From contig JAHFRS010000018.1 in the NCBI GenBank assembly GCA_023266155.1, positions 1 through 11,996 on the forward strand: DNA of 11,996 bases, read 5' to 3'. Every line of letters starts with the position of its first letter. Positions within the stretch are counted from its first letter, which is position 1. The notes under the pieces are model-generated. The model saw only the letters and a list, made by a program, of their open reading frames with translations. It had not been told where the DNA came from and did not search any database. Both the position numbers and the translations under genes were made by a program. Shown here piece by piece: positions 1-11,996 of this stretch. Source of the stretch: an archaeon. Lineage in GTDB: Archaea > Nanobdellota > Nanobdellia > Woesearchaeales > GW2011-AR9.

Positions 1-613
1 TCCTCAATTTACCTTGCCCGATGGAAGCATAGTGTACCGCCCTTTAACTTTCCGAGAGAATCTCGAAGCACGGGTCAAAGAGTATGAAACCTTGCAGCAT
101 CCTGATGGACGAGCAAAGACTGATGAGGAACGTCTGGCCTTATTTTCTAAATGGCTCGATAGCTCTGCGGGTATGATGTACCAAGCCAAGACCACAAAGT
201 TCAAGGTTATTCCTGCCTGTTCGCCGCTTATCACCATTGATAAAGCTAACAAAGATGCTTTTCTGGCCGTTCCCTATGTCGCTCATACTTCTGGTGTGGA
301 ATTAGACTCTTCTGCCCGAGGAGTAAAGTATAATACTGCTCTCACGCCGAGCGAAGTACAGGCTCACCCGGCGTGGCGTGCTGTTGTTGACAATGATGTG
401 TCATTGTTGAAAACGTATTCGGCAATAGTCTTTCCACTATTGAAGCAGAAGTTTAATCATGATAAGGGCATGGGATTTTATGTTCGCCAGAATACTGCTG
501 ATGATGAACTGCGGGCTTTGTTCGTCAGCAACCTTGACGGCAGCTCGAGTGCCGGTGGCGATAGCCTTTACGGCAGCGGGTCTTTCCTCCGAGTCGCCCA
601 CCGTCGTCGTGCG
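1..613 (+). repeat. Duplicated segment, left copy (partner 2711-3326)
   Basis: Bases 1-120 are identical to 2711-2830. Bases 121-235 are clearly diverged. Bases 236-383 are identical except at 304 (A versus G). Bases 384-410 are diverged, 411-520 are nearly identical, and the variable block follows. The duplication extends beyond the left window edge. The patchwork of identity suggests gene conversion between copies rather than uniform drift. Confidence 0.9.
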
Positions 614-619
614 CCGTGA
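1..619 (+). CDS. DGR-type variable protein, copy A (5' end outside the window)
   Basis: The reading frame is already open at the window edge (codon phase begins at base 2) and ends at TGA 617-619, so only about 205 C-terminal residues are seen; the ATG at 14 is internal by comparison with the full-length copy at 2475-3332. The two copies align almost without gaps, both containing TFRENLEARVKEYETLQHPD, GVELDSSARGVKYN and GMGFYVRQNTADDELRALFV. They then diverge abruptly in a short block (527-577) before a shared GSFLRVAHRRRA end. A C-terminal variable block just before a constant FLRVA-like end is typical of targets of diversity-generating retroelements, whose known variable domains have a C-type-lectin fold; that fold is inferred here. 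Copy A has Gly and Ser at many variable positions where copy B has Tyr and Asn. The stop codon overlaps the GTG of the next gene. No hairpin follows its variable block, unlike copy B, so it may no longer be a homing target. Binding partner unknown. Confidence 0.8.
   Translation, partial: PQFTLPDGSIVYRPLTFRENLEARVKEYETLQHPDGRAKTDEERLALFSKWLDSSAGMMYQAKTTKFKVIPACSPLITIDKANKDAFLAVPYVAHTSGVELDSSARGVKYNTALTPSEVQAHPAWRAVVDNDVSLLKTYSAIVFPLLKQKFNHDKGMGFYVRQNTADDELRALFVSNLDGSSSAGGDSLYGSGSFLRVAHRRRAP
527..577 (+). other. DGR-like variable region, copy A
   Basis: Against copy B (3237-3290), codon pairs in order include AGC/TAC, AAC/ATC, GGC/CGC, AGC/AAC, AGT/TAT, GGT/TAT, GAT/AGC, AGC/AAC, TAC/AAC and AGC/GAC. 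Apart from GAT/AGC, which also changes its third base, these differ only in codon positions 1 and 2 and can derive from an AAC or AAT template codon. Interspersed codons (GAC, TCG, GCC, GGC, GGG) are constant. One codon is missing relative to copy B. The adenine-directed pattern is seen in the sequence; attribution to a retroelement is inference because no template repeat or reverse transcriptase is present here. Confidence 0.7.
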
Positions 620-2478
620 AAAAAATGATCCCCTTACCAGCCAAAGATTTGGAACAGCACCTGCAACGCCTTGTCCTTGCCCAAGGTTCTGCCAGCTCCG
701 TCTCGGTGACAGAAATTACTGGCGCTCGCTCTATTGCTGCACATATTGAACATACCGATTCTCGTCCTATTAAAGTTCAAATTCCTGCTGGCTGGAATCC
801 TTTAAAGTACGCCAACATTCAAGCTTTTTCCCGACGATTAAGAGCACCAGATATCCGTGTTAAGATCGCTGAAGATGTCGGTTTCCATGAAATGGGGCAT
901 CACAAATTAAAACATGATGCACGGGGTTTAGGCTGTCCGGAAGACCTTCACGGAAAAGAAATTGCCGTTGAGGCTGTATCGAAGGCTATGCTGGAAGCAG
1001 GAAAGTTCTCCCCACAAGGAGCACTGCATCTTGAGAATGTGATTGCTGATATCATTAATAATCTTAATTGCTCGCAATATACCAAGCTAAATGGGTTAAG
1101 TATGTACTTTGCTGAGCAGGGAGAAGTCAATCGTGGAAAATATTCTCCACTTTTTGAAGCTTTTGTTAAGCTCAATATGCATCTCATGGGATCTCCACGA
1201 CAACAAAAAATGCTTCGTCAATACTACACCAATGCCCAACGTATTGATGATGTAGTTGCGGCCTGTATTCAAGAGGTGGGATTGACTAAAGACAAGCAAC
1301 AAAATATCGCGCGACTCTTTGATAAATCACAATGGCCTCATCTTTTTTACACCTTTGGCAAGCACTTGGCTACGTTGATGGATCATGATTCCGCAGAACT
1401 GCTGCCCCATATCGGCGCAGGAGGGTATAAAGTTCCTAGTACTTTTGGCAGTGTCATTCGTTTTACGCCGGACGAAGTTGATGATGAAGATTTTAAACGT
1501 GTCCTTGACCGGGATAACCTGAAAAAAGTAATGTTACGCCGTAATAAGAACGGGGAAAATATTCCTTCTTTTATTGAAAATTGGCGTGCTTTAGATTACT
1601 TTTATCAGGGCAAAGCAGCGGAAATTATAATTAAAGCAGAAGCACCCCGTAGAGGGGAACGTTTGCCTATTGCTCCGATCCAAACCCGTCAATTTGATCC
1701 AGATAAAGATGCGGTTGAACACATCCTCTTTGGACACATCATTTTTGACGAGAGGGGCGAACCTTGCTTTGCCGTGCCTCGACAATATCTTGACCATCAG
1801 GCTCAATATAAGAAGAGCATGACCAGCTATCCGGAATTAAATATTGCTCTGCTGGATACATCTAGTAGTATGAAATTAGCGGCAAATGCCGGGGGAGTTG
1901 GCAACACTTCCATCGTCCCCTGGGGAGATAACAGTCGCTATCACTACGGTGTGCTTACCTATTACGGTGTGGAAAAAGCCCTGCATCGTCTGGGCGTGGG
2001 AACAAAGACACGTTACAATTTGATCACGTTCTCTTCACAGACGAAGGCCAGCGGTGAGAAAACTCACGAAGAACGAGGACAAATTAAACAACGCATCTTG
2101 CAACCAGCGTTTGGCACCAGTACAGAAATTGATGTTGATGTTTTGGCAAAACAAACTCGTGAGCCGGGCAGTATTTTGATGACGATCAGTGATGGGGAAA
2201 TTCAGAATTGGGATTCCTGGTATACAGAGCCAAAACTTGACGAAGACAATAACGTTGTCAAAGCCGGTGTACGAGTGAAAGACCGTTTTAAGCACATTGT
2301 TGCTGACAAGTTTTATGTTCATTTCCAGATTGGCGGAGAGACTGCCGTCACTCGTGACATTGAACGATGGGGTGGAACGGTGGTTAAAATCAGCAATGCG
2401 GCAGAATTACCTCGTCGGGCAATCGATATAACTCACCGATTTTATTCAAGCTATGCTGCTGGAGAAAAAGGAAAATGA
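616..2478 (+). CDS. HExxH metallopeptidase-like / von Willebrand factor A domain protein
   Basis: A 620-residue protein. The N-terminal part carries HEMGH at residues 91-95, a zinc-metallopeptidase HExxH motif, followed by a helix-like stretch ENVIADIINNLN near 140-151 that could supply the third metal ligand. The C-terminal part is a vWA domain: DTSSSM at 414-419 gives the DxSxS MIDAS triad (D414, S416, S418), a Thr lies near 501-503 and ISDGE has D526, so the metal site looks complete. This order recalls the DUF2201-type 'putative metallopeptidase plus VWA-like' proteins often encoded next to MoxR AAA+ ATPases; the match is from memory. No signal peptide is seen, so it is probably cytoplasmic. 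The GTG at 616 overlaps the previous stop (GTGA), but an in-frame ATG at 625 is an alternative start. Its stop overlaps the ATG of copy B (ATGA). Translational coupling on both sides with two variable proteins suggests one functional unit, possibly sensor plus effector. Whether it cleaves anything is unknown. Confidence 0.75.
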   Translation: MKKMIPLPAKDLEQHLQRLVLAQGSASSVSVTEITGARSIAAHIEHTDSRPIKVQIPAGWNPLKYANIQAFSRRLRAPDIRVKIAEDVGFHEMGHHKLKHDARGLGCPEDLHGKEIAVEAVSKAMLEAGKFSPQGALHLENVIADIINNLNCSQYTKLNGLSMYFAEQGEVNRGKYSPLFEAFVKLNMHLMGSPRQQKMLRQYYTNAQRIDDVVAACIQEVGLTKDKQQNIARLFDKSQWPHLFYTFGKHLATLMDHDSAELLPHIGAGGYKVPSTFGSVIRFTPDEVDDEDFKRVLDRDNLKKVMLRRNKNGENIPSFIENWRALDYFYQGKAAEIIIKAEAPRRGERLPIAPIQTRQFDPDKDAVEHILFGHIIFDERGEPCFAVPRQYLDHQAQYKKSMTSYPELNIALLDTSSSMKLAANAGGVGNTSIVPWGDNSRYHYGVLTYYGVEKALHRLGVGTKTRYNLITFSSQTKASGEKTHEERGQIKQRILQPAFGTSTEIDVDVLAKQTREPGSILMTISDGEIQNWDSWYTEPKLDEDNNVVKAGVRVKDRFKHIVADKFYVHFQIGGETAVTRDIERWGGTVVKISNAAELPRRAIDITHRFYSSYAAGEKGK

Positions 2479-3332
2479 CCAAAACTAATCCCTGGAAATA
2501 TGTACATATTGATCCGGCTGAAGTAGCTCGGAATCCTTATTTGAATCCACGTGTTCCGCCTCCTCCACCTCCTCCTGATGTAGCTGGTTCAAGACCTCCT
2601 GCTGGCAGCAGCCTTGATGGAGATTATATTCTGATGCCTCAAACTAATACCTATGCGTTAGGTGTTGATGCCCTTCGTGAAGCGTGTAAGAATGATCCTG
2701 CTTCAGCTCATCCTCAATTTACCTTGCCCGATGGAAGCATAGTGTACCGCCCTTTAACTTTCCGAGAGAATCTCGAAGCACGGGTCAAAGAGTATGAAAC
2801 CTTGCAGCATCCTGATGGACGAGCAAAGACGGCAGAAGAACGTCAGGCTCTCTTTTTGAAATGGCTCGATAGCTGTACGGGCATAGCGTATAAAGCCAAC
2901 ACCACGAAGTTTAAGGTTATTCCTGAATGTCTGCCACTTATCACGATTGATAAAGCTAACAAAGATGCTTTTCTGGCCGTTCCCTATGTCGCTCATACTT
3001 CTGGTGTGGAATTGGACTCTTCTGCCCGAGGAGTAAAGTATAATACTGCTCTCACGCCGAGCGAAGTACAGGCTCACCCGGCGTGGCGTGCTGCAGTTGA
3101 AAATGATGTTCCCCTGTTGCAAACGTATTCGGCAATAGTCTTTCCACTATTGAAGCAGAAGTTTAATCGTGATACGGGCATGGGATTTTATGTTCGCCAG
3201 AATACTGCTGATGATGAACTGCGGGCTTTGTTCGTCTACATCCTCGACCGCAACTCGTATGCCTATGGCAGCAACTACCTTAACGGCGACGGGTCTTTCC
3301 TCCGAGTAGCCCACCGTCGTCGTGCGACGTAG
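2475..3332 (+). CDS. DGR-type variable protein, copy B (full length)
   Basis: A 285-residue full-length relative of the protein ending at 619. The first 45 residues are Pro-rich with a run of seven prolines at 28-34, probably a flexible linker, and there is no signal peptide or membrane segment. Residues about 80-253 form the conserved core shared with copy A. Residues 255-272 are the variable block (Tyr, Asn, Ile, Arg, Asp-rich), followed by a constant GSFLRVAHRRRA end. Proteins with a 'DELRALFV - variable - FLRVA' layout are known to me as DGR targets in candidate-phyla bacteria and DPANN archaea; the C-type-lectin fold is inferred. The Tyr- and Asn-rich variable face resembles ligand-binding surfaces diversified by DGRs. 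The ATG overlaps the vWA gene stop (ATGA), and AAAGGA just upstream may serve as ribosome binding site. The TAG lies in the loop of a GC-rich hairpin. Ligand unknown. Confidence 0.85.
   Translation: MTKTNPWKYVHIDPAEVARNPYLNPRVPPPPPPPDVAGSRPPAGSSLDGDYILMPQTNTYALGVDALREACKNDPASAHPQFTLPDGSIVYRPLTFRENLEARVKEYETLQHPDGRAKTAEERQALFLKWLDSCTGIAYKANTTKFKVIPECLPLITIDKANKDAFLAVPYVAHTSGVELDSSARGVKYNTALTPSEVQAHPAWRAAVENDVPLLQTYSAIVFPLLKQKFNRDTGMGFYVRQNTADDELRALFVYILDRNSYAYGSNYLNGDGSFLRVAHRRRAT
2711..3326 (+). repeat. Duplicated segment, right copy (partner 1-613)
   Basis: It matches 1-613 with an offset of 2710 up to the variable block and 2713 after a one-codon length difference there. Long exact blocks alternate with diverged patches. 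See the left copy for boundaries. Confidence 0.9.
3237..3290 (+). other. DGR-like variable region, copy B
   Basis: This is an 18-codon block directly after the constant ALFV codons and before the constant GGGTCTTTCCTCCGAGT. The variable codons TAC, ATC, CGC, AAC, TAT, TAT, AGC, AAC, TAC, AAC and GAC are all NNY and reachable from AAY by changing only adenines. Constant codons between them contain few adenines. The downstream constant GC-rich segment is in the position of an initiation-of-mutagenic-homing sequence, and the hairpin at 3321-3343 follows it. Confidence 0.7.
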
Positions 3333-3353
3333 GGCGTCGCGCGCGATTTTTTT
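3321..3353 (+). terminator. GC-rich hairpin with T-run; possible DGR hairpin and/or terminator
   Basis: Bases 3324-3329 pair perfectly with 3335-3340. Pairs 3323/3341 (G-U type), 3322/3342 and 3321/3343 extend the stem to nine. The five-base loop TAGGG contains the stop codon of the variable gene. Seven T follow at 3347-3353. The shape fits termination of the three-gene transcript. Its place just after the variable region also matches the downstream hairpin that DGRs use for target recognition. The equivalent position after copy A has no such hairpin. Confidence 0.6.
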
Positions 3354-3357
3354 GAAG

Positions 3358-3471
3358 CTAAATTACTTTTATCCCTTTTAGTATCAAATAGAGGGCAATA
3401 ATAATGAGAGCGATTTGAATGAGGGTAATGAGTTCTTTATGTCCACTTCCTGTTTTGTTCCACAACTTCAT
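3358..3471 (-). CDS. 37-residue single-pass membrane microprotein
   Basis: On the minus strand an ATG at 3471-3469 opens 37 codons ending at TAG 3360-3358. The product starts MKLWNKTGSGHKE and continues as one strongly hydrophobic segment (about residues 14-33, rich in Leu and Ile) ending GIKVI. Its ATG overlaps the stop of the upstream 89-residue gene by ATGA, which supports translation and coupling. The pair probably forms one transcript and possibly one membrane complex. I do not recognise a family. The T-rich hairpin region lies just beyond its stop. Confidence 0.55.
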   Translation of the reverse strand: MKLWNKTGSGHKELITLIQIALIIIALYLILKGIKVI

Positions 3472-3737
3472 TTTTTCCTCACCATTTGCTGTTTTAAGTA
3501 TTCCACATCGCTTTTCAAACCAATTAACTGGTTATGGATGTTGAGGCGTTCTTCGAGCTTCTTAATGCTTTCGCCATAGCCCTCCATATCTTCAGAGAAA
3601 GATTTGATGATATAAAAAACTATCGTACCGGCAAAAACGGCACTGGCCCATAGACGATCTTCTTTGTTGATGAAAGCCAACATGGCGAAAGCGATACTAA
3701 CAAGACTCAGAGCGTTTGATTTCCATTCTGATACCAT
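3468..3737 (-). CDS. Small two-TM membrane protein with C-terminal coiled coil
   Basis: An 89-residue protein with two predicted membrane segments (about residues 9-23 and 29-46) joined by a short charged loop NKEDR. A Lys/Glu-rich amphipathic stretch (about 56-87) looks like a coiled coil. There is no signal peptide beyond the first membrane helix. The start at 3737 lies 28 bases from the centre of a TATA-like element, fitting a leaderless transcript, and it diverges from rio1. The stop overlaps the start of the 37-residue membrane gene. Family not recognised; the form could suit a small scaffold, but no function can be assigned. Confidence 0.7.
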   Translation of the reverse strand: MVSEWKSNALSLVSIAFAMLAFINKEDRLWASAVFAGTIVFYIIKSFSEDMEGYGESIKKLEERLNIHNQLIGLKSDVEYLKQQMVRKK

Positions 3738-3760
3738 TCTTCGCCATTGGAAAGAATAAC

Positions 3761-3770
3761 TATATAAAAT
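3761..3770. promoter_or_regulatory. TATA element shared by divergent genes
   Basis: TATATAAAAT on the plus strand reads ATTTTATATA on the minus strand, and both resemble archaeal TATA boxes. From its centre (about 3765) the rio1 ATG at 3792 is 27 bases away and the minus-strand ATG at 3737 is 28 bases away. Both transcripts would therefore begin at or within a few bases of the start codon (leaderless). No Shine-Dalgarno precedes either start. Confidence 0.6.
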
Positions 3771-3791
3771 TACTCTGCTTTTCTATTTTTT

Positions 3792-4505
3792 ATGGTCACT
3801 TTACGCTATCAGGAACGCTTCAAGACGGCTCAGGGCGTCTTTGACGAATTCACTCACCGCAACTTGTTTGAACTCCATAGCCGTGGCACCTTTGATGATT
3901 TGGTTTCTCCGGTGAAAGTGGGCAAAGAAAGCAATGTCTTCCTCGCCATTAAAGGCAAGCAGAAACTGATTGTTAAAATATATCGCGTGCAGAACTGTGA
4001 TTTCCGCACAATGTTTGCCTATATCCAAAAAGATCCCCGCTATGAGTTCCTCAAACAAAAGAGACGGGAGATCATTTTTTCCTGGACTCAGCGGGAATAC
4101 AAGAACCTGTTTAAAGCACAAAAAGCTAACGTTCTGGCGCCGGTTCCTTTAGCCTGGAAATACAACATTTTGGTGGAGACAATGATTGGCGATGAGCAGC
4201 CGGCGCCGATGTTGAAAGATGCTCATCCCAGGGAGCCCCCAGAATTTTTAGAATTGGTCGTTGAAGAAATGAAAAAACTGTATCAGGGCGGGCTAATCCA
4301 CGGCGATCTTTCGGCCTTCAATATTCTGAATCATCAGGAGAAACCATATTTGATTGATTTTTCTCAGGCTACGTTGACGAAGACGCCTAATGCTGAAGAA
4401 CTGTTGGCAAGGGATGTGAAGAATGTGATCAAATTCTTTCGTAAAATAGGTGTACCAGCAAATTCTGAGGCAATGTTTAATAAAATAACCGGTAAAAAGA
4501 CGTAA
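3792..4505 (+). CDS. rio1: RIO1-type serine/threonine protein kinase/ATPase
   Basis: A 237-residue RIO-family atypical kinase, which in Archaea and eukaryotes acts in late maturation of the small ribosomal subunit. Visible elements are the flexible P-loop VGKESNVF (43-50), the ATP-positioning lysine in VKIY (K62), the catalytic loop LIHGDLSAFN (168-177; D172, N177) and the metal-binding IDFSQ (188-192; D189). The HGDLSxxN and IDFSQ forms are RIO hallmarks. A GKESNV-like loop favours RIO1 over RIO2, as does the absence of an N-terminal winged helix. The length is compact compared with many archaeal RIO1 proteins (about 250-290). Transcription is probably leaderless from the TATA element at 3761. 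The KH gene starts two bases after its stop, consistent with a joint role in 30S assembly. Confidence 0.93.
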   Translation: MVTLRYQERFKTAQGVFDEFTHRNLFELHSRGTFDDLVSPVKVGKESNVFLAIKGKQKLIVKIYRVQNCDFRTMFAYIQKDPRYEFLKQKRREIIFSWTQREYKNLFKAQKANVLAPVPLAWKYNILVETMIGDEQPAPMLKDAHPREPPEFLELVVEEMKKLYQGGLIHGDLSAFNILNHQEKPYLIDFSQATLTKTPNAEELLARDVKNVIKFFRKIGVPANSEAMFNKITGKKT

Positions 4506-4507
4506 TT

Positions 4508-5092
4508 ATGGACACGGAAGAATCTGACGATCACCCTGAGGAAAAATCCGCTGAGGAACTTACCGGAGATGAATTCTCCTACGAGTTGAAAATCCCGGAA
4601 GAGCGTGTAGGAGTATTAGTGGGAACGGAAGGAAAAAGTAAGAAGGAGATTGAAGTACAGACCAAAACGAAATTGGTGATTTCTAAGGAAGGCGACGTGG
4701 CCATCACCGGTGAAGATGCCATTTTGCTCTATACTGCCCGGGAAATTGTCCGAGCCATCGGTCGGGGATTTAACCCTAAAATTGCGTTGCAGTTGCTGAA
4801 AGCGGATTACGCATTTGAAATCATTGACCTCTCTATCATGACGGGGAAGAACAAGAACATGATGGAACGACTGAAAGGCAGAGTGATTGGCACGGGAGGA
4901 AAGTCACGGGAAGAGATTGAACGATTGACGGATACTTATATTTCTGTCTATGGCAAGACTGTGGGGATTATCGGGGAAGTAGCACAGGTTTCTGTAGCTC
5001 GGGAAGCGCTGGCGATGCTAATTCAGGGAGCGATGCATAAGACGGTTTATAGGTATCTGGAAAAGAAAAAGAAGGAACAGTTGTTGGGGTGA
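4508..5092 (+). CDS. Archaeal Dim2/Pno1-like double KH domain RNA-binding protein
   Basis: A 194-residue protein with an acidic N-terminus and two KH units. KH1 has the GTEG loop at 39-42 (VLVGTEGKSKKEIE) and KH2 has GTGG at 128-131 (RVIGTGGKSREEIE). Between them lies a conserved-looking segment with GRGFNPKIALQLL (85-97). The C-terminal HKTVYRYLEKKKKE is typical of the universal archaeal KH protein related to eukaryotic Dim2/Pno1, which binds pre-rRNA near the 3' end of 16S rRNA. It is separated by two bases from rio1, and this pairing, often next to the topoisomerase VI genes, is a known archaeal neighbourhood. Function is assigned by family and context. Confidence 0.9.
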   Translation: MDTEESDDHPEEKSAEELTGDEFSYELKIPEERVGVLVGTEGKSKKEIEVQTKTKLVISKEGDVAITGEDAILLYTAREIVRAIGRGFNPKIALQLLKADYAFEIIDLSIMTGKNKNMMERLKGRVIGTGGKSREEIERLTDTYISVYGKTVGIIGEVAQVSVAREALAMLIQGAMHKTVYRYLEKKKKEQLLG

Positions 5093-5104
5093 GGGTGATT
5101 TTGG

Positions 5105-5242
5105 CTGGAAAAAGTAACACGACCTTCTCAAAAAACGAAAGAAAATGAAGAGCGACGGACGTGGATTGCGTTAGGAGAAAAAGTATTTGCCAAGGTGTGG
5201 GATAATTCTCTCGATGAAGAAACATGGAAACACTATCTTTGA
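5105..5242 (+). pseudogene. Antitoxin-like small gene without a normal start codon (remnant)
   Basis: The open frame from CTG 5105 to TGA 5240-5242 encodes 45 residues containing QKTKENEERRTWIALGEKVF and AKVWDNSLDEETWKHYL. The 'E-x-W-x-x-L-x-x-x-x-F-A-K-V-W-D-N' ending resembles short antitoxins of type II toxin-antitoxin pairs common in DPANN genomes (recalled resemblance, not a search). An in-frame TGA lies three codons before the CTG and there is no ATG, GTG or TTG, so the start appears lost unless CTG is used. No intact toxin gene follows. It lies just after the KH gene in an interval of decayed sequence. Confidence 0.45.
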
Positions 5243-5258
5243 ATCGCTACCAGCGTGA

Positions 5259-5455
5259 TTTTCTCTGAAATTAGACAAAAATTATCTTCTCTTTTTACCT
5301 AAAGACAAAAGTGTATTTATGCTGACAAGGTTAATATCAATCTGTGGGCGCCCGTGATGGTGGCTATTGTCATAACATCAACAGAAATCGCTCAAACGTA
5401 TCGTCAGCATTTTAAGTTGATCTGGGAAAGCGCTTTCACCAAGGGCAAAACGTAA
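5259..5455 (+). pseudogene. Frameshifted C-terminal remnant of a TrmB-like regulator
   Basis: Frame 5259 onward reads KLDKNYLLFLPKDKSVF. The match then shifts to another frame from about 5315, giving IYADKVNINLWAPVMVAIVI followed by TSTEIAQTYRQHFKLIWESA and a TAA at 5453-5455. The 'LPKD..-DKV.I..W....-AI.I.S.EIA..YR..F..IW' pattern resembles the effector-domain end of TrmB-family transcriptional regulators. No N-terminal winged helix is present nearby and the frame is broken, so it is most likely a decayed fragment. The family call is from memory and only moderately secure. Confidence 0.4.
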
Positions 5456-5468
5456 GTCACCACAACCC

Positions 5469-5476
5469 TTATAAAC
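5469..5476 (+). promoter_or_regulatory. TATA box for the ORF50-top6B-top6A transcript
   Basis: TTATAAAC is centred about 26 bases before the ATG at 5498, so a leaderless transcript would begin at that codon. It is the only convincing promoter between the KH gene and top6B, suggesting that the decayed interval separated the topoisomerase genes from rio1-KH transcription. Confidence 0.5.
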
Positions 5477-5497
5477 ATTTTCCTGTTTTCTCGCGGC

Positions 5498-5650
5498 ATG
5501 GTGCCGAAGATGCCGGAAGAAAAAACGTATTTGTTTAGCACCTTCGAAACTCTCGATGGAAAAGTGGTTGGTGCTACGTCCCCGGATGGGGCAACCCCCC
5601 GTTACGCACTCGATTTATCAATGGCAGGAGTTTCGACCTTATGGTGCTAA
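5498..5650 (+). CDS. 50-residue leaderless upstream ORF overlapping top6B
   Basis: ATG 5498 opens 50 codons ending at TAA 5648-5650, overlapping the first ten bases of top6B in another frame. The product includes [17 protein letters not shown] and [18 protein letters not shown] recognise no family. Support for translation is the TATA box at exactly leaderless distance. Support for a regulatory role is that codons 10-15 form one arm of an inverted repeat whose other arm covers the top6B start, and that its stop lies seven bases past the top6B ATG. It could be a genuine microprotein, a coupling leader, or an accidental frame in a structured 5' untranslated region. Confidence 0.45.
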
Positions 5651-5659
5651 ACAAATACG
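5526..5659 (+). promoter_or_regulatory. Long-range inverted repeat sequestering the top6B start
   Basis: Bases 5526-5542 are the perfect reverse complement of 5643-5659 (17 pairs). Just inside, 5544-5552 are the perfect reverse complement of 5628-5636 (9 pairs). One unpaired base on the left and six on the right separate the two stems. The right arms contain most of the Shine-Dalgarno AGGAG (5626-5630), the G of the top6B ATG (5641-5643) and its next codons. The enclosed segment has another hairpin (GGTTG 5566-5570 with CAACC 5592-5596, and CCCC 5580-5583 with GGGG 5588-5591). GGTGCTA at 5570-5576 repeats the beginning of the outer right arm and could pair instead with 5536-5542, giving a competing fold. 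Confidence 0.65.
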
Positions 5660-7437
5660 AAAAACCACGAACCGCTGAAGATCTGGCGAAGAAACAGCGA
5701 GAGATAAGTATCGCCGAATTCTTTGAAAAAAATCGTCATCTTCTCGGCTTCGATAATCCACGGAAGGCTCTTTTAATGGCGGTGAAAGAAGCTGTTGATA
5801 ATTCTTTAGATGCCTGTGAAGAAGCCAGAATTCTGCCAGAAATCAACGTGGAGCTAGTCCAGTTGGAAGAAAAACGTTTCCGGGTCATCGTGGAAGATAA
5901 TGGGCCGGGCATCATCCGCAAGCAAATTCCCAAAATCTTTGCCAAATTGTTATATGGCAGCAAGTTTCATAAATTAAGTTCGACCCGCGGGCAACAAGGT
6001 ATCGGCATTTCTGCGGCAGTTCTCTACGGCCAATTAACGACGGGAAAGCCCGCAACGATCCTTTCCAAGACCGGTAAAGACTCCAAAGCTCATGCCTTTA
6101 AATTGAAAATCAACACCCAGACTAATAATCCGGACGTGATTGAAGATGTCGAGCAGGTGTGGGAAGGGAAAGATCACGGTATCCGAGTCGAAATCGATAT
6201 GGAAGGCGAGTACCTCAAAGGCCGCCAGTCGGTGGATGAATACCTGAAAGAAACGGCCATCGTCAATCCCCATGCTACTTTTATTTACACCAATCCTGAA
6301 GCCCAGCAGATTATTTTTGCCCGTGTCACGGAGCAGCTGCCGCCGGAAGTGCAGGAAATCCAACCACATCCCTATGGCGTGGAATTAGGCATTCTCATTA
6401 AAATGCTGGAAACGACGGAAGCTAAGACCTTACAGCAATTTTTAACCACAGAATTTGTGCGTGTTGGTCCTGGGACGGCCAAGGAAATCTGTCAGAATTC
6501 TGCTTTACTCCCTCATACGAAACCTAAAGAAGTCAGCCGGGACATGGCCGAACATCTGTATAAAGGCATCCAAAAAACTAAAATCATGGCGCCGCCAACA
6601 GATTGTATCTCGCCGATTGGTGCGGAACTGTTAGAACATGGGTTGCGCAAGGAAATCAATGCGGAATTTTATGCTGCGACGACGAGGCCGCCGGCGGTCT
6701 ATCGTGGCAATCCCTTTGTGGTTGAAGTCGCCTGTGCTTATGGTGGAGAACAGGATGTGGAAGGCACGATTCGGATCATGCGTTTTGGCAACCGCGTGCC
6801 ATTATTATATCAGCAGGGCGCTTGTGCCATTGCCAATGCCATCCAGAACACCGTCTGGAGGACCTATGGATTAAATCAAAGTCAGGGATCTTTGCCCACG
6901 GGACCATGTACGATGGTGGTGCATATGACATCCGTCTGGGTGCCGTTTACCTCTGAATCAAAAGAAGCCCTGGCGCATTATCCGGAAATCATCAAAGAAA
7001 TCAAATTGGCCTTGCAGGAATGCGGCCGAAAATTGGCGATGTATGTCAACAAAAAACGGCGTATCGGGGATGAGGTCAAGAAGCGTGGTTACATTGAAAA
7101 ATATATTCCTCACGTGGCGGAATCAATCAAAGAAATTACCGGTATCAACGATGAGCAGCGTCAGAAAATAGAAGATAATTTATATGAAATCCTTGAGCAT
7201 ACTCGTGGCGAACTGGAAGAAATCGGCGTGGATAATCCTGAGTATGACCCTGAATATGCCAAAATTGGCGCGGAGGAAGAAGTTGCCGTCGAGGAAGTCC
7301 CAGAACCTAAAAAGGGGCGCAAAAATCCTTCCCTCAAAGCGGCTGGTGATGACGATAACGGAGACGATGATGACGATGATGACGATGATGATGGAGACGA
7401 TGATGAGGAAGAAGAACGGCAAACAAAACTGATGTGA
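5641..7437 (+). CDS. top6B: DNA topoisomerase VI subunit B (GHKL ATPase)
   Basis: A 598-residue ATP-gated subunit of the type IIB topoisomerase that relaxes and decatenates DNA with Top6A. GHKL motifs are the N-box [14 protein letters not shown] (49-62, N54), EDNGPGI (85-91, D86, G88, G90) and the lid [15 protein letters not shown] (115-129). The transducer carries [10 protein letters not shown] with K441 as probable switch lysine. A helix-two-turn-helix region is expected around 245-310. It is longer than the well-studied Sulfolobus protein (about 530) because of a linker and an acidic tail (about 570-592), mostly Asp, encoded by GAT/GAC repeats. The first 12 residues before [20 protein letters not shown] are an extension covering the inverted repeat. 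AGGAG at 5626-5630 is a good ribosome binding site, but it can be sequestered. The stop overlaps top6A by GTGA. Confidence 0.97.
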
Positions 7438-8546
7438 ACATTATGGCGATAAAAAAAACAGGCGATAAGGACGTCGTGCGAAAAATTGTCACGATGGCAG
7501 AAGAGATGCACAGCAAGATCAAGCAGATGAAGCAACCTCAGTTAAAAATTCCGTTACGCTCTTTAACCAATGTTGAATATGATTTGAAAGAAGGTTATTT
7601 CAAGCTGTTGCCTGGAATTAAAGCACGGACACTGACGGCAGGCACGATCAAAACGTTTGCCCAGACTCTGCGGATGATGGGTTTGTCGAAGAACTTGGTA
7701 GAAACCGATGACATCGCCACCAAGAGGGAGGCTTATTACGTCAGTAAGAATTGGGGCGAAGCACGCTTTTTAGAGCAGCCAGAATCAGATACGGTGATGG
7801 ACGATATTGAAGCAATGATGCAAGTTAATCGGGAACAGATTGGGTTTATTCCGGAAGAAAAAGGCGGCGATATTGCCGGAGAATTGATTGTCATTGATAA
7901 AGATTCCGAAACGGGAAAAGAGTTACGCATCGACTGTACCAAATTTGGTTCCGGCGCCTATTCTGTACCGAGTTCCTGTGAGCATCTGAAGTTTGAAACG
8001 AAAGCTAAGTTTGTGTTAGCGATTGAAACCAGCGGGATGTTTGAACGGTTAAATAAGCATAAGTACTGGAAGACCGCCAATTGTATCCTGATTTCGATGG
8101 GTGGTGTGCCAACGAGAGCCTGCCGGCGGTTTGTCCGGAAGATTGCTGACCAGCAAAAATTGCCCGTATATGTATTTACCGACAGTGACCCTTACGGGTT
8201 TGGCTCCATCTATCGGACGCTTAAAGTTGGTTCTGGCAATGCCGCACATATCAATGAATTTTTCTGTGTGCCCCAGGCAACATTTTTAGGAGTGACACCG
8301 CAGGATATCATTGACTATAAGTTGCCGACGCATCCGCTGAAAGATGTTGACATTAAGAAAATTAAAGATTTGATCAAGAATGACCCTTTCATCAAGCATT
8401 ATAAAGAGTGGCAGAAAGCCTTAGAGCAGATGGCTAAAATGAAAGTTCGTGCCGAGCAGCAGGCCCTTGCGGCGTGGGGATTAAATTTCGTGATGGAAAA
8501 ATATCTTCCTGAAAAACTGAAAAATCCAAAAACCTGGCTGCCGTAA
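7434..8546 (+). CDS. top6A: DNA topoisomerase VI subunit A (Spo11-like DNA cleavage subunit)
   Basis: A 370-residue catalytic subunit homologous to Spo11. The winged-helix (5Y-CAP) domain carries [12 protein letters not shown] (97-108), where Y102 (second Tyr of the RxxYY-type motif) is the probable nucleophile that links to DNA 5' ends. The Toprim domain has the acidic residue E198 in AIETSGMF and D250/D252 in [11 protein letters not shown], which bind magnesium. The length is normal for the family. GTG 7434 overlaps the top6B stop (GTGA); an in-frame ATG at 7443 is an equally possible start and changes only three residues. Its stop overlaps the next ATG (TAATG), so subunits B and A and the isomerase are probably translated from one message. 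Confidence 0.97.
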
Positions 8547-9103
8547 TGAAGAAAAGTATTGAATTAGGAGTAGTGTTGATAACGGTCATCCTCATTATTT
8601 CCTGTCGCCCCCTACCTATGAAAAACAGAACTGCCACTTTTGAAACGTCGTTGGGAAGATTTCAGGTCGAGTTGTTTGAAGATAAAACTCCTTTGACCAC
8701 CAAGAATTTTATTGATTTAGCAGAGAAAGGGTTCTATGATGGAACCAGATTTCATCGGGTGATTTCTGGATTTATGATTCAAGGAGGAGATCCTTTAACT
8801 CAGGATGTAAATAAGAAAAGACTTTGGGGAACGGGCGGCCCAGGGTACGAAATAAAAGATGAGTTTGGCATCGGGCTGAGTAATGTCCCAGGCACCATTT
8901 CCATGGCCAATCATGGCCCCAATACTGGGGGAAGCCAGTTTTTTATTAATACTGCCAAGAATACGTTTTTGGACGGAAAACATCCTGTCTTTGGAAAAGT
9001 GGTTTCAGGTATGGATGTGGTGGATAAAATTGAGTCTGTTCGAACCGGTTCTGAGGATAAGCCGGTTGAAGATGTTGTGGTGGTGAAAGTGACAATTGAG
9101 TGA
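8546..9103 (+). CDS. Cyclophilin-type peptidyl-prolyl cis-trans isomerase, probable lipoprotein
   Basis: A 185-residue cyclophilin that interconverts cis and trans peptide bonds before proline. Core motifs are [15 protein letters not shown] (69-83; R71, F76, M77, Q79 of the active site), [10 protein letters not shown] (126-135; Q131, F133) and [11 protein letters not shown] (142-152; H146). The first 20 residues, [20 protein letters not shown], form a hydrophobic segment ending in a lipobox-like IISC, so this form is probably exported and anchored via C20. An in-frame ATG at codon 25 (8618) would give a cytoplasmic enzyme with a complete domain. It overlaps the top6A stop by one base, so it shares the topoisomerase transcript although no functional link is obvious. 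Confidence 0.93.
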
Positions 9104-9116
9104 GAAGGTAGAGATA

Positions 9117-9153
9117 GGTAACGATTTATAAAAATCTCGTTCTACCGGATTTT
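9117..9153 (+). terminator. Possible hairpin terminator after the isomerase gene
   Basis: GGT/AACG/ATTT (9117-9127) can pair with AAAT/CGTT/ACC (9132-9146) around the loop ATAA, with two 2-base bulges, followed by GGATTTT. An alternative pairing uses the GGTAGAGAT just upstream. The stems are weak and A/T-rich, so this is a tentative call. Confidence 0.3.
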
Positions 9154-9164
9154 ACTGAATAAGG

Positions 9165-9174
9165 TTTAAATATA
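9165..9174 (+). promoter_or_regulatory. TATA box and leader of the zinc-ribbon gene
   Basis: TTTAAATATA is a good archaeal TATA box; initiation about 26 bases on (around 9196) leaves a short leader of about 25 bases. The leader holds a strong Shine-Dalgarno-like GAGGAGAG at 9207-9214, six bases before the ATG at 9220. This gene is therefore leadered, unlike several neighbours. Confidence 0.6.
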
Positions 9175-9219
9175 ACCTCGCTTGTTAGCATTGAAAGAAA
9201 ACATCAGAGGAGAGAAATC

Positions 9220-9582
9220 ATGGTCGACATTCGCAAACTAAGAACCTGTGAAGTGTGTAAAGCCGATGTGCCAGCTACTCAGGTGAAGCTCTTTCCCAAA
9301 GACCGGGAACGCAACTGGATGCTCTGTGCGCCCTGTTGTGACAAAATGAAGAACCGGGCGTCGGCCAAGGTGGCCGCTACTCCTAAAGGGGTGAAGAAAG
9401 AACTCATCCGCAATGTCTATGAGCGAACCGTCACCAAGCAGGAGAAAGGCGATGCCACGGATTATAAAGTGCTGTTCTGCACCCGTTGTAATTATAATTT
9501 TAAAGTTGATAACGGCCGCGCTGGGGTATTTTTTAACTTGAACTGCCCCTATTGTGGCAAAGACGATCAGATCAGGAAATGA
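9220..9582 (+). CDS. Double zinc-ribbon protein of unknown function
   Basis: A 120-residue, basic protein with four CxxC knuckles: C10/C13, C36/C39 (with an extra C40), C87/C90 and C109/C112. Pairing the first two and the last two would build two separate zinc ribbons. A Lys/Arg-rich linker (about 41-75, ending NVYERTVTKQEKGD) joins them. The second ribbon (CTRCNYNFKVDN...CPYCGKDDQ) looks like a nucleic-acid or protein-binding treble-clef/ribbon type. A small cytoplasmic protein with a strong ribosome binding site and its own promoter suggests steady expression, perhaps in translation or transcription, but that is inference. I have a general impression of similar DPANN proteins but no named family. 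Confidence 0.85.
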   Translation: MVDIRKLRTCEVCKADVPATQVKLFPKDRERNWMLCAPCCDKMKNRASAKVAATPKGVKKELIRNVYERTVTKQEKGDATDYKVLFCTRCNYNFKVDNGRAGVFFNLNCPYCGKDDQIRK

Positions 9583-9583
9583 G

Positions 9584-9598
9584 TTTTATTATTTTTCT
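9584..9598 (+). terminator. T-rich terminator of the zinc-ribbon gene
   Basis: Immediately after the TGA at 9580-9582 comes GTTTTATTATTTTTC, with runs of four and five T. This fits archaeal T-tract termination. It separates the gene from the convergent ATPase gene, whose stop is at 9600-9602. Confidence 0.45.
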
Positions 9599-9599
9599 A

Positions 9600-10859
9600 T
9601 CAGCTCGTCAATTTCTCTGTGCGGATAAGAAACTTCCAAAGCGGAATTATGAAAATCTTTTTCTGGTTCAAGACAATGGAGTTTTCTTCATTCATAGTAA
9701 TTATAACTCCTTCGGCAAGTCTAAATTTTTCCATCGCTTCCTGCAGTCCCTGCAATTCTCTTTCTCTCGTCTCTGGCTGCTCGAGATGTACAGCAACCTG
9801 TATCGCTTGGATGATGTTCACACCTTTTTTTATCACAAAATCGCACTCCTTTTTGCCATAATAATAGTAAATCTCCAATTTTCGCCGCTTCAATTCTAAA
9901 AAAACGATGTTTTCTAATAGTTTACCCTGCTCTTTCCCGAAACTAAAAGCAATGGCATTAATCAGCCCCGAATCGATAGCGTAAATCTTCCGGTCATTTT
10001 TTATTTGCTTTTTGATTGAATATTCATATTTAAAGACGGCAAAGAGCAGATACGCCTCCGAAAGAAAATCCATATAATTTTTAACTTTTGAAGTAGTGCT
10101 GAAATGAAGAAGATTCTTGATGTTATTAAAGCTGATCTTTTGTGAAATGTTTGATAATAAATAAAGTGCCAGCTCTCGGAAATCTTTGCTGTCGCGGATA
10201 GCAAAACGAACCAGTAAATCTTTGATGATAATATCTTGATAAATTTCAGTTAGTTCTTCGCTATCTTTGCTTTTTACCATCTCTGGAAAACCACCCTCAC
10301 AAATATAATCCTGAAGCAATCGGGATATTTCCGCTATTTCTTTAGTGGTATAGATGGCTTTAATAAGGAAGTGATGATAATGCAAATATTCCACAAAGCT
10401 AAATGGAAACAATTCTAATTTCAGATTTCTTCCGGTTAAAGCTGTGGCGATCTCTGAACTTAACAGCTGAGCATTGGAACCGGTAATAAATAGTTTGTAA
10501 CCTTCTGAAAACAGGCGTCTGGCAAACTTTTCCCACCCGCCAATATTTTGGATTTCATCAAAAAAAAGTACTTTCAAATCTGCGTGTAATTCTAAAAAAG
10601 CTTCCAACAAAACATTGAAATCTTTATAGGTAAAATCAAGTAGGCGTTCGTCTTCAAAGTTAAAATAACCATAAGTTGTATAGCTCCTGGCAATTTGGCG
10701 CAGCAAGGTGGATTTTCCACACCTTCTAATGCCCGTAATAATAATTATTTTTGGTGTAGTCAGCAATTTTTCAGGGAAAGCCCGATCCACTATTCTTTTT
10801 TCTTGTTCAAAAATTTCTTTCTGTTCCAAGATCATTCTTTTGAGCGTTTCTTTATCCAT
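9600..10859 (-). CDS. AAA_14 / DUF4143-type P-loop ATPase
   Basis: A 419-residue protein of the widespread archaeal/bacterial 'ATP-binding protein, DUF4143' group. The ATPase part has Walker A GIRRCGKS (43-50), Walker B VLFFDEIQ (97-104) and a sensor-1-like FITGSNA (124-130). A central winged-helix-like part follows. The C-terminal domain has LENIVFLEL (315-323), GKKECDFVIK (335-344) and a Gln in QVAVHL (354-359), a layout reminiscent of PD-(D/E)xK nuclease folds; whether it cuts DNA is unknown. Such genes are mobile and present in many copies in archaeal genomes, and their cellular role is not settled. The start at 10859 lies about 26 bases from a minus-strand TATA box, fitting a leaderless transcript. 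The convergent neighbour ends 18 bases away. Confidence 0.93.
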   Translation of the reverse strand: MDKETLKRMILEQKEIFEQEKRIVDRAFPEKLLTTPKIIIITGIRRCGKSTLLRQIARSYTTYGYFNFEDERLLDFTYKDFNVLLEAFLELHADLKVLFFDEIQNIGGWEKFARRLFSEGYKLFITGSNAQLLSSEIATALTGRNLKLELFPFSFVEYLHYHHFLIKAIYTTKEIAEISRLLQDYICEGGFPEMVKSKDSEELTEIYQDIIIKDLLVRFAIRDSKDFRELALYLLSNISQKISFNNIKNLLHFSTTSKVKNYMDFLSEAYLLFAVFKYEYSIKKQIKNDRKIYAIDSGLINAIAFSFGKEQGKLLENIVFLELKRRKLEIYYYYGKKECDFVIKKGVNIIQAIQVAVHLEQPETRERELQGLQEAMEKFRLAEGVIITMNEENSIVLNQKKIFIIPLWKFLIRTEKLTS

Positions 10860-10880
10860 AAACCCCTAAATCTCTCCCTC

Positions 10881-10890
10881 TTTATATACT
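10881..10890 (-). promoter_or_regulatory. TATA box of the ATPase gene (minus strand)
   Basis: The minus strand reads AGTATATAAA, centred about 26 bases before the ATG at 10859. This predicts transcription starting at or next to the start codon. Confidence 0.55.
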
Positions 10891-10939
10891 TTACTAAAAT
10901 ATACTTAATACCTATTTTATATTTTACTAAAATATACTT
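10890..10939. repeat. Direct repeat pair upstream of the ATPase promoter
   Basis: The 17-base sequence TTTACTAAAATATACTT occurs at 10890-10906 and again at 10923-10939, with starts 33 bases apart (about three helical turns). A shorter piece, TATACTT, occurs a third time at 10885-10891, inside the TATA element. The arrangement on one DNA face next to the core promoter is that of operator sites, possibly autoregulatory. Confidence 0.5.
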
Positions 10940-11079
10940 TAAGACTGGTTTTCTTCTTTCGTTCGATGGCAGCACCGTTCTTTAACGGACTCCACTTAAT
11001 GCCCTGACACTTTAATCAGGCTACATTACCTTCTGCCCCCAGAACTTCAATTTTCACTATCATGGAGAGGGCAATCATC

Positions 11080-11132
11080 TTTTTATAGTCAACTCTCTCT
11101 CTCTCTCTCGGGAAACTTGTTGAAATGAGGTG
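11080..11132 (+). promoter_or_regulatory. Putative promoter and ribosome binding site of the lipoprotein gene
   Basis: TTTTTATAG at 11080-11088 is a plausible TATA box. Initiation about 26 bases downstream (around 11111) would leave a leader of nearly 30 bases with GAGGTG at 11127-11132, six bases before ATG 11139. A CT-dinucleotide tract fills the space between the TATA box and the predicted initiation site. Confidence 0.45.
11093..11109 (+). repeat. CT dinucleotide tract, eight and a half units
   Basis: An uninterrupted C-T alternation of 17 bases. It sits between the putative TATA element and the expected start of transcription, so changes in unit number by slippage would change promoter spacing. 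Confidence 0.85.
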
Positions 11133-11138
11133 TTGATG

Positions 11139-11996
11139 ATGAAAAAACTGAATGTTCTATTATTAGGATTACTTACCGTCATAATCTTGTTGGTGGTTAG
11201 TTGTGCTCCAGGGCAAGGTTTTGCTGGGAAAGCTTTTGCGCTTCCTCAGGATAAAACCGTTACTTCTTGTACGGAAACCGCGAGTGGAACTACTATCGTT
11301 CAAGGAAGTGGAAAGAAAGTAATGACCATAACAAACTCTGATGGTTGCGATTCCAGAAATAAATATCATGATTACAGTTGTCCTAAACCAGGCGTTCAGC
11401 GTGATCAGGCTACTCAATGCACCAGCAATGAACGCTGTGTTAATAATACTTTTAAGCCTTGTGTTGCTATAGCCTTGCCTTGTCCGAATGGCCAACAGCG
11501 TTTTGCACGTGAATTGTCAGATAGAGAAGGAGTTTGTGGAACACGTGAAGGAGCAGAATCATTCTGTTTATCACACCACATATATATTTCAAACCCGCCC
11601 GAGGGAACGTTTTGTTATTTCAGATCCGGCGATTATGGTTCTGTTGATTCTCAAAGAATTACCGGAGAGTATGAATGTCTGCTGGATTTGAGTGATCCCA
11701 TTTTTAGTACTTCTCCCCCCTCAGGAGCTTGTCCTGGTGGCTCTAGTTTGTTGAGTGGAAATCTGTTGCAGTATTTATGTCATAGTGATAGTCCAATAAT
11801 TGGCAGTTGCGCGGCAGGTTACGAACTTACGGGAAGTGCTACACCTTCTGAAGGATGGAGAGATTACGTGATTTGGTGTGGGTTGGGGGGATTTAGGTTC
11901 CCAGAGCAAGCAAGTGCAGACCAATATGCTTCCTGCGGTACTTCAGGTGCTAGGGCAATTGGTGGTTCTGGCAGTTCGTACTGTTGTGCTTATTTA
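11139..11996 (+). CDS. Cysteine-rich exported lipoprotein (3' end outside the window)
   Basis: From ATG 11139 the frame stays open for 286 codons to the window end, with no stop. The N-terminus MKKLNVLLLGLLTVIILLVV is a signal peptide ending in the lipobox-like VVSC, so C22 is the probable lipid-anchored residue. Eighteen further cysteines follow (for example C44, C70, C81, C94, C100, C108, C115, C133, C143, C159, C180, C198, C214, C224, C247, C266, C282, C283), implying a disulfide-stabilised surface protein. The segment with CTETASGTT, SDGCDSRNKYHDYSC and NERCVNNTFKPC resembles small Cys-rich modules of exported DPANN proteins (general impression). The rest is Gly/Ser-rich. GAGGTG six bases upstream favours ATG 11139 over the adjacent ATG 11136. 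Function unknown; a cell-surface role is inferred from the anchor. Confidence 0.75.
   Translation, partial: MKKLNVLLLGLLTVIILLVVSCAPGQGFAGKAFALPQDKTVTSCTETASGTTIVQGSGKKVMTITNSDGCDSRNKYHDYSCPKPGVQRDQATQCTSNERCVNNTFKPCVAIALPCPNGQQRFARELSDREGVCGTREGAESFCLSHHIYISNPPEGTFCYFRSGDYGSVDSQRITGEYECLLDLSDPIFSTSPPSGACPGGSSLLSGNLLQYLCHSDSPIIGSCAAGYELTGSATPSEGWRDYVIWCGLGGFRFPEQASADQYASCGTSGARAIGGSGSSYCCAYL

Follow-up and report, generated by a model that had tools for sequence, protein, structure and literature searches.

Near the start of contig C49 of a woesearchaeal genome (GenBank assembly GCA_023266155.1, contig JAHFRS010000018.1), a gene for a protein with a von Willebrand factor A (vWA) domain lies between two paralogous genes, and the locus raises the question of how these paralogues came to differ at their C-termini. 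The stretch analysed, referred to here as the window, is bases 1-11996 of the contig; the genome is 1.19 Mb in 186 contigs and 82.7 % complete. An earlier note, made from the letters of the window, had proposed a diversity-generating retroelement (DGR), in which, as outlined in the literature, a reverse transcriptase (RT) introduces errors at adenines as it copies a template, and a variable region is then replaced by the product. This attribution is upheld by adenine-restricted differences, by residues compatible with NNY codons in 100 homologues, by templates and RTs in relatives and by an AvpA-type C-type-lectin fold. A DGR origin of both copies, together with an arrangement around vWA genes that recurs, is in our view very probable.

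The two variable proteins, copy 1 and copy 2, are 87 % identical, and copy 1 matches the family profile with an E value of 4e-91. The blocks at issue, 527-577 and 3237-3290, belong to the C-terminal ends of the open reading frames (ORFs) 2-619 and 2475-3332 and are read in frame. They had been described as differing at about ten codons, which is fair, as 12 of the 17 codons within 527-577 are substituted (Fisher P = 8e-6 for the density of changed codons). In a codon alignment, 14 aligned codons are changed from position 520 on, with 9 first-, 6 second- and 4 third-position changes, versus 30 of 175 codons in the body of the copies, with 8, 10 and 20 such changes. The description of the changes as lying in the first two positions, with hardly any variation at the third, holds only approximately (Fisher P = 0.02 for the contrast between variable part and body), and the codon-position signal taken alone is modest. 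The third-position changes CTT/CTC (533/3243) and GTC/GTA (593/3306) correspond to an A in the templates of two relatives, G026 and G061 (CTA and ATA), and the templates of two others, G032 and G039, have no A at the CTT/CTC site. Because GTC/GTA stands at a template A, the footprint extends beyond 577, to about 598. The variable parts also differ in length by 3 bases (one codon).

Restriction of the differences to the adenines of an outside template provides the decisive, independent test. Templates were sought as repeats with mismatches located at A in one copy, near homologous targets, and all of those used come from relatives of the window's genome. One template accompanies four targets in G061 (mismatches at A 14/14, 10/10, 10/10 and 9/9), and templates were also found in G026 (13/13), G032 (18/18) and G039 (12/12); the scan of a fifth relative locus, in G009, found none. 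Against the G026 template, 17 of the 18 substitutions between copy 1 and copy 2 are at template adenines (17 of 29 A sites and 1 of 48 others; P = 1.5e-8). The other templates gave 17/18 (G061), 15/18 (G032) and 16/18 (G039), with P ranging from 4e-6 to 1.5e-8 over the four, and the result holds over eight gap placements leaving at most 22 differences (worst P 1.4e-4). The G026 template is the nearest, and relative to it 18 of 29 A sites and 6 of 48 others are changed in copy 1, and 15 of 31 A sites and 5 of 49 others in copy 2. Within single genomes, the A/non-A differences are 15/0, 10/0 and 10/0 for three G061 targets, 13/0 in G039, and 12/0 for a G026 target on contig C36 compared with the template on contig C38. 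The contig of that last variable region (295-390, - strand) carries no RT, and its adenine-only differences may mean that it was written from afar or that the array has been split.

The target family shows the same signature at the protein level. The alignment contains 99 of the 120 listed homologues and the window protein, 100 sequences in total, and has 13 hypervariable columns (255, 256, 258-260, 262, 264, 266-268 and 270-272) interleaved with the near-invariant S261, A263, G265 and L269. Residues outside the NNY code (K, E, Q, M and W) occupy 12 of 1295 hypervariable cells versus 1988 of 7413 at 77 other variable positions, a contrast between related rows for which a P value is not to be taken literally. 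Of the 13 variable residues, only 3 and 1 are shared with the two closest relatives, whose identity elsewhere is about 85 %; a third, P0003, shares 6 of 13 and its deficit is not significant. The AlphaFold2 model of copy 2 (pLDDT 91.3) matches the AvpA-type C-type-lectin fold, a ligand-binding fold that holds the variable residues. Pfam and PHROGs returned no family for the variable and vWA proteins, and no sequence match to AvpA was found for the window's variable family or for the variable proteins of G021 and G226. Searches bearing on a viral origin were negative, in that none of the 56 IMG/VR stretches matching two patterns is a relative and 50,697 phage records gave no match. With PADLOC, seven of eight proteins had no match, and only RT models matched, on a relative's RT. 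One relative in which no RT was found, G012 (93 % complete), has nine target homologues on nine contigs; several of them have long N-terminal parts, and an in-frame TAG occurs in two.

RTs were detected in 8 of the 17 target-bearing genomes, and those of seven relatives contain LGNLTSQ, which we take to be a DGR-type RT motif. In the window's genome, no template was found with its own variable region as query, nor with a relative's template, to which the two known copies were the only matches. An adenine scan of the window gave no template, and neither RVT_1 nor a relative's RT detected an RT. The earlier note would take as refutation the lack of both from a complete genome together with variation spread evenly over codon positions in reads or related strains; at 82.7 % completeness in 186 contigs, this assembly falls short of a complete genome for the template and for the RT alike. 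Adenine scans gave no template at L028 (G009), L093 (G032, where target and RT are present), L129 and L131. At L028 an RT of DGR type (679-1892, - strand) is split over two frames beside the target, a decaying element. Three scan hits were not counted as templates: that at L087 (8/8) pairs two paralogues on the strand opposite the genes, the second at L094 is the reverse reading of the first, and the third at L130 (8/8) was also left out. Five further DGR loci (L090, L091, L092, L094 and L095, in G014, G026, G036 and G048), with targets unlike the window's, have templates with 11 to 15 mismatches, all at A.

The arrangement around the vWA gene, on which the earlier note is silent, as it is on the gene itself, is not confined to the window. 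A sample of 371 genomes of the phylum contains 31 with a match to the vWA profile. Among 30 loci tested, which were picked from the best vWA matches and not at random, 20 of the 23 vWA genes with same-strand neighbours are flanked by paralogues. Control triples in the same loci are paralogous in 19 of 108 cases (7 of 42 away from the vWA gene), and by eye all 19 sit in gene arrays of the same systems. The figure of 20/23 is from a second version of the test, which used other ORF rules; the first gave 16/21, and two of its five misses (L129 and L134) do have paralogous flanks. Seven loci gave no vWA triple (L086, L112, L133, L137, L151, L152 and L153). The flanks of L086 are 84 % identical in the first version, L153 has a cut pair, and the match in L135 covers 49 residues only (first version).

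The order in G061 is variable gene, MoxR, variable, variable, vWA, variable, template, RT. Loci in which the vWA gene is flanked on either side by variable genes and which also contain MoxR and an RT are found in G238, G226 (two loci), G228, G122, G303, G377, G420 and G289. Two sites are paired with one template, with all or almost all mismatches at A, at L126 (11/11 and 16/16), L127 (17/17 and 9/9), L128 (20/20 and 22/24), L130 (19/20 and 15/15), L132 (14/14 and 16/16) and L133 (14/14 and 18/19). The order in G021 is MoxR, variable, vWA, variable, the pair is of another family and an RT was not found; the last 50 residues of the two members of the pair show 11, 10 and 3 changes at first, second and third codon positions, versus 17, 13 and 29 in the body. 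For the window's own vWA subfamily, the contigs of homologues P0122 and P0124 have the same lengths (3510 and 15148) as the contigs of target homologues P0005 and P0035, a hint of linkage. In G026 and G048 a different vWA type lies beside the target.

The recognition part of the arrangement is exchangeable, being a DGR-diversified lectin fold in the window and leucine-rich repeats, PMP-type repeats or unnamed families elsewhere. The pair flanking the vWA gene in G211 (L139) consists of leucine-rich-repeat proteins, the one member scanned matching LRR_8 (E 1.5e-39), and those in G316 (L136) and G088 (L087) match the Chlam_PMP repeat (E 1.5e-9 and 7.5e-10). Seven of the ten members of flanking pairs or arrays scanned with Pfam, drawn from the six other pairs or arrays, gave no family, including the variable proteins of G021, G226 and G428. 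Arrays of diverged paralogues, of which the members scanned have no Pfam family, lie beside the vWA gene at L150 (8879-16000, six or more) and L151 (22-6717, eight). No paper on the paired arrangement was noticed among the matches listed in our literature searches, the scope of which did not take in Paul et al. 2017.

The vWA protein belongs to no Pfam or NCBIfam family. It has an HExxH motif at residue 91 and a MIDAS motif at residue 414, and in an alignment of 74 homologues out of 120 listed, among them the window's protein, H91, H95, D414, S416, T503 and D526 are invariant and E92 and S418 nearly so. The model (pLDDT 90.3) has a C-terminal vWA domain, with NorD, Rea1 and many other vWA domains among the best matches. 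Judging from the motif, HExxH is a putative peptidase site. The MoxR-like gene of the window's genome is on contig C60, where it encodes at least 251 aa and runs off the contig end. It matches AAA_5 (3e-11), with a bpMoxR match below the cut-off. Its identity is 76 % to the MoxR of G021 and 57 % to the one in G310, whereas G021 and the window have vWA proteins with just 27 % identity. This gene could be the one missing upstream of the window. Contig C15 of the genome (L083, 925-4622, - strand) encodes a second protein matching the vWA profile, which adjoins two proteins that by eye resemble GHKL (HSP90-type) ATPases and is possibly part of another system of similar sort.

On the reading we prefer, a DGR RT would have copied an AAY-rich template, erring at adenines, and the cDNA would have replaced the 3' end of each variable gene, giving copies 1 and 2 different versions of a 13-residue surface on the AvpA-type fold. 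In this lineage the writing would be the work of an RT now absent or unassembled. The variable proteins could then be interchangeable recognition subunits of a MoxR/vWA machine, both partnering with the vWA protein and acting as sensors: a bound foreign or partner molecule would lead to a signal transmitted through vWA protein and ATPase, possibly as far as a putative peptidase site at HExxH. We put such a machine, with binding relayed, at slightly less than an even chance. The wider proposition, that DPANN archaea possess a widespread undescribed machine in which a vWA/HExxH protein works with a MoxR ATPase, the vWA gene being flanked on either side by recognition genes that are paralogous and exchangeable, and of which there is a DGR form where one template rewrites more than one of these genes, seems to us evenly balanced. 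Its role may lie in defence, partner recognition or protein maturation. If the proposition is true, these otherwise gene-poor archaea have a hypermutating two-sided sensor.

Several observations weigh against parts of this account. The one-codon indel and one T/C change are at odds with a single template and suggest two templates, or one that changed between writings; the earlier statement that both copies appear to be diversified from one template is left unproven. Compared with the two more distant templates, G032 and G039, copy 2 gives weak results (P 0.04 and 0.05). The window's own assembly shows targets only, with no detected RT or template. In 9 of the 17 target-bearing genomes no RT was detected, and six of these (G006, G012, G017, G021, G030 and G038) have a completeness of 90 % or more; targets of this kind could be fossils or could receive their variation from elsewhere. 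The arrangement has real counter-examples in L137 and L152, with vWA and MoxR genes and no pair, and L138, L142 and L150 failed the pair test. Most annotated target loci have no vWA or MoxR gene beside the target, and the family thus occurs outside the arrangement as well. The genome's own MoxR gene is on another contig, an unproven link, and peptidase activity is read from the motif only.

Three other explanations were weighed. That no retroelement was involved, and that ordinary diversifying selection or gene conversion between the paralogues made the pattern, is very improbable: the body of the copies is indeed patchy, with difference-free stretches at 236-303, 305-383 and 466-523, but the confinement of the differences to adenines of a template from outside (P = 1.5e-8), the NNY residue set and the RTs and templates beside homologous targets all speak for a DGR. 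The two genes may instead be ordinary fixed paralogues now, diversified in an ancestor that lost RT and template, an alternative that Paul et al. 2015, in the part available to us, also name for nanoarchaeal targets without an RT. The missing RT and template favour it, as do the six relatives mentioned above. However, only 1 of 48 non-adenine sites differs in the variable regions, versus 38 of 524 bases before them, which points to limited ordinary drift since these regions were last written or homogenised; both reading frames are open and 17 % of the genome is missing. We consider such a fossil possible, though well short of an even prospect.

In the third explanation the variable proteins would attach to a host or partner cell, and vWA protein and MoxR would be their maturation chaperones, with no sensing relay. 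A symbiosis role has been suggested for AvpA-like proteins (Handa et al. 2016, PMC5006420, as far as the part available to us goes), and NorQ/NorD, a MoxR/vWA pair whose vWA protein our model resembles, acts in metal insertion according to the accessible part of PMC9976466. On the other side, neither copy 2 nor the vWA protein has a segment of membrane strength (maximum mean Kyte-Doolittle value over 19 residues 0.89 and 0.93), by which their sequences lean towards an internal place, and a signal peptide is not evident by eye, though the proteins may be exported by another route. Attachment of this kind deserves some weight, if distinctly less than an even chance.

The features of the variable cassette are listed in Table 1.

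Table 1. Features of the variable cassette at the start of contig C49
Feature	Position	Strand	Basis and remarks
Repeat, identical to 2711-2830	1..120	+	Sequence identity
Variable-protein gene, copy 1	2..619	+	ORF; 205 aa seen, N-terminal part cut by contig start
Variable region of copy 1, very probably DGR-written	527..598	+	Differences from copy 2 at template adenines of relatives, 17/18
vWA gene; 620-aa protein, HExxH and MIDAS motifs, C-terminal vWA domain	616..2478	+	Motifs, conservation, fold
Variable-protein gene, copy 2; 285 aa	2475..3332	+	ORF, junction, AlphaFold2 model, AvpA fold
Variable region of copy 2, very probably DGR-written	3237..3311	+	Adenine test; 13 hypervariable family columns
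Possible hairpin behind variable region of copy 2	3317..3346	+	Folding z -1.7, weak; terminator equally possible

Copy 1 has no start codon because the window begins with base 1 of the contig, inside the gene, and the identity of bases 1-120 to 2711-2830 means that the contig begins inside a repeat. The paralogous variable genes and the vWA gene between them are all on the + strand with overlapping junctions. The start of the vWA gene was taken as the GTG at 616, overlapping the stop of copy 1 (GTGA, if the GTG is right), with an ATG further on at 625; the ATG of copy 2 overlaps the stop of the vWA gene (ATGA). The conserved stretch GGGTCTTTCCTCCGA, a candidate initiation of mutagenic homing (IMH) site behind the variable region, is present in both copies. 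DGRs often carry a hairpin behind the variable region. Of 200 shuffles, 13 fold as well as the possible hairpin in Table 1, and folding of the equivalent place behind copy 1 (z +1.7) gave none; such a hairpin is described for bacterial DGRs in the part of PMC5006420 at hand.

Downstream, the genes at 3792-9100 on the + strand encode a RIO kinase, a KH-domain protein, the B and A subunits of topoisomerase VI and a cyclophilin, so the variable cassette adjoins core genes. An ATPase with AAA_14 and DUF4143 is encoded at 9600-10859 on the - strand; in archaea this family is often a mobile or repeated gene.

Among known systems, a comparison can be made with the VMAP ternary conflict systems, which are MoxR-vWA systems associated with DGRs, are known from multicellular bacteria and contain lectin domains diversified by DGRs (PMC7159879 and PMC10907252, in the parts accessible). 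They are alike in having a MoxR-type ATPase, a vWA protein and a DGR-diversified lectin-fold protein in one neighbourhood, and some bacterial loci of this type are reported to have two targets next to MoxR. A vWA protein is present here by fold and MIDAS motif, and MoxR adjoins the vWA gene in relatives, the window genome's own being on C60. However, no VMAP protein with an effector domain was recognised, either among the 12 window proteins scanned with Pfam or by eye among the module ORFs of G061 and G021, and the locus is therefore not filed as a VMAP system. It also differs in being archaeal, in a vWA protein that has HExxH and is not fused to a lectin domain, in an AvpA-type rather than an FGE-type fold, and in a vWA gene flanked on either side by paralogous recognition genes. 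Other MoxR-vWA pairs include NorQ/NorD, in which NorD is the partner of the MoxR ATPase NorQ, and the model of the window's vWA protein has a fold like that of NorD. DGRs in DPANN archaea, and AvpA itself, are already known (PMC5006420, PMC4372165), and nanoarchaeal DGR targets were reported as orphan genes (Paul et al.), in each case going by the parts of these papers available to us. Compared with the nanoarchaeal DGR that has AvpA (PDB 5ioo), the window's proteins share the fold and lack a sequence match, their variable region is nearly at the very C-terminus, and the paralogous targets bracket a vWA gene, an arrangement not described in those parts of PMC5006420 and PMC4372165. This vWA arrangement, often with MoxR, gives nanoarchaeal DGR targets likely partners, and the purpose of these DGRs thereby becomes testable at the bench.
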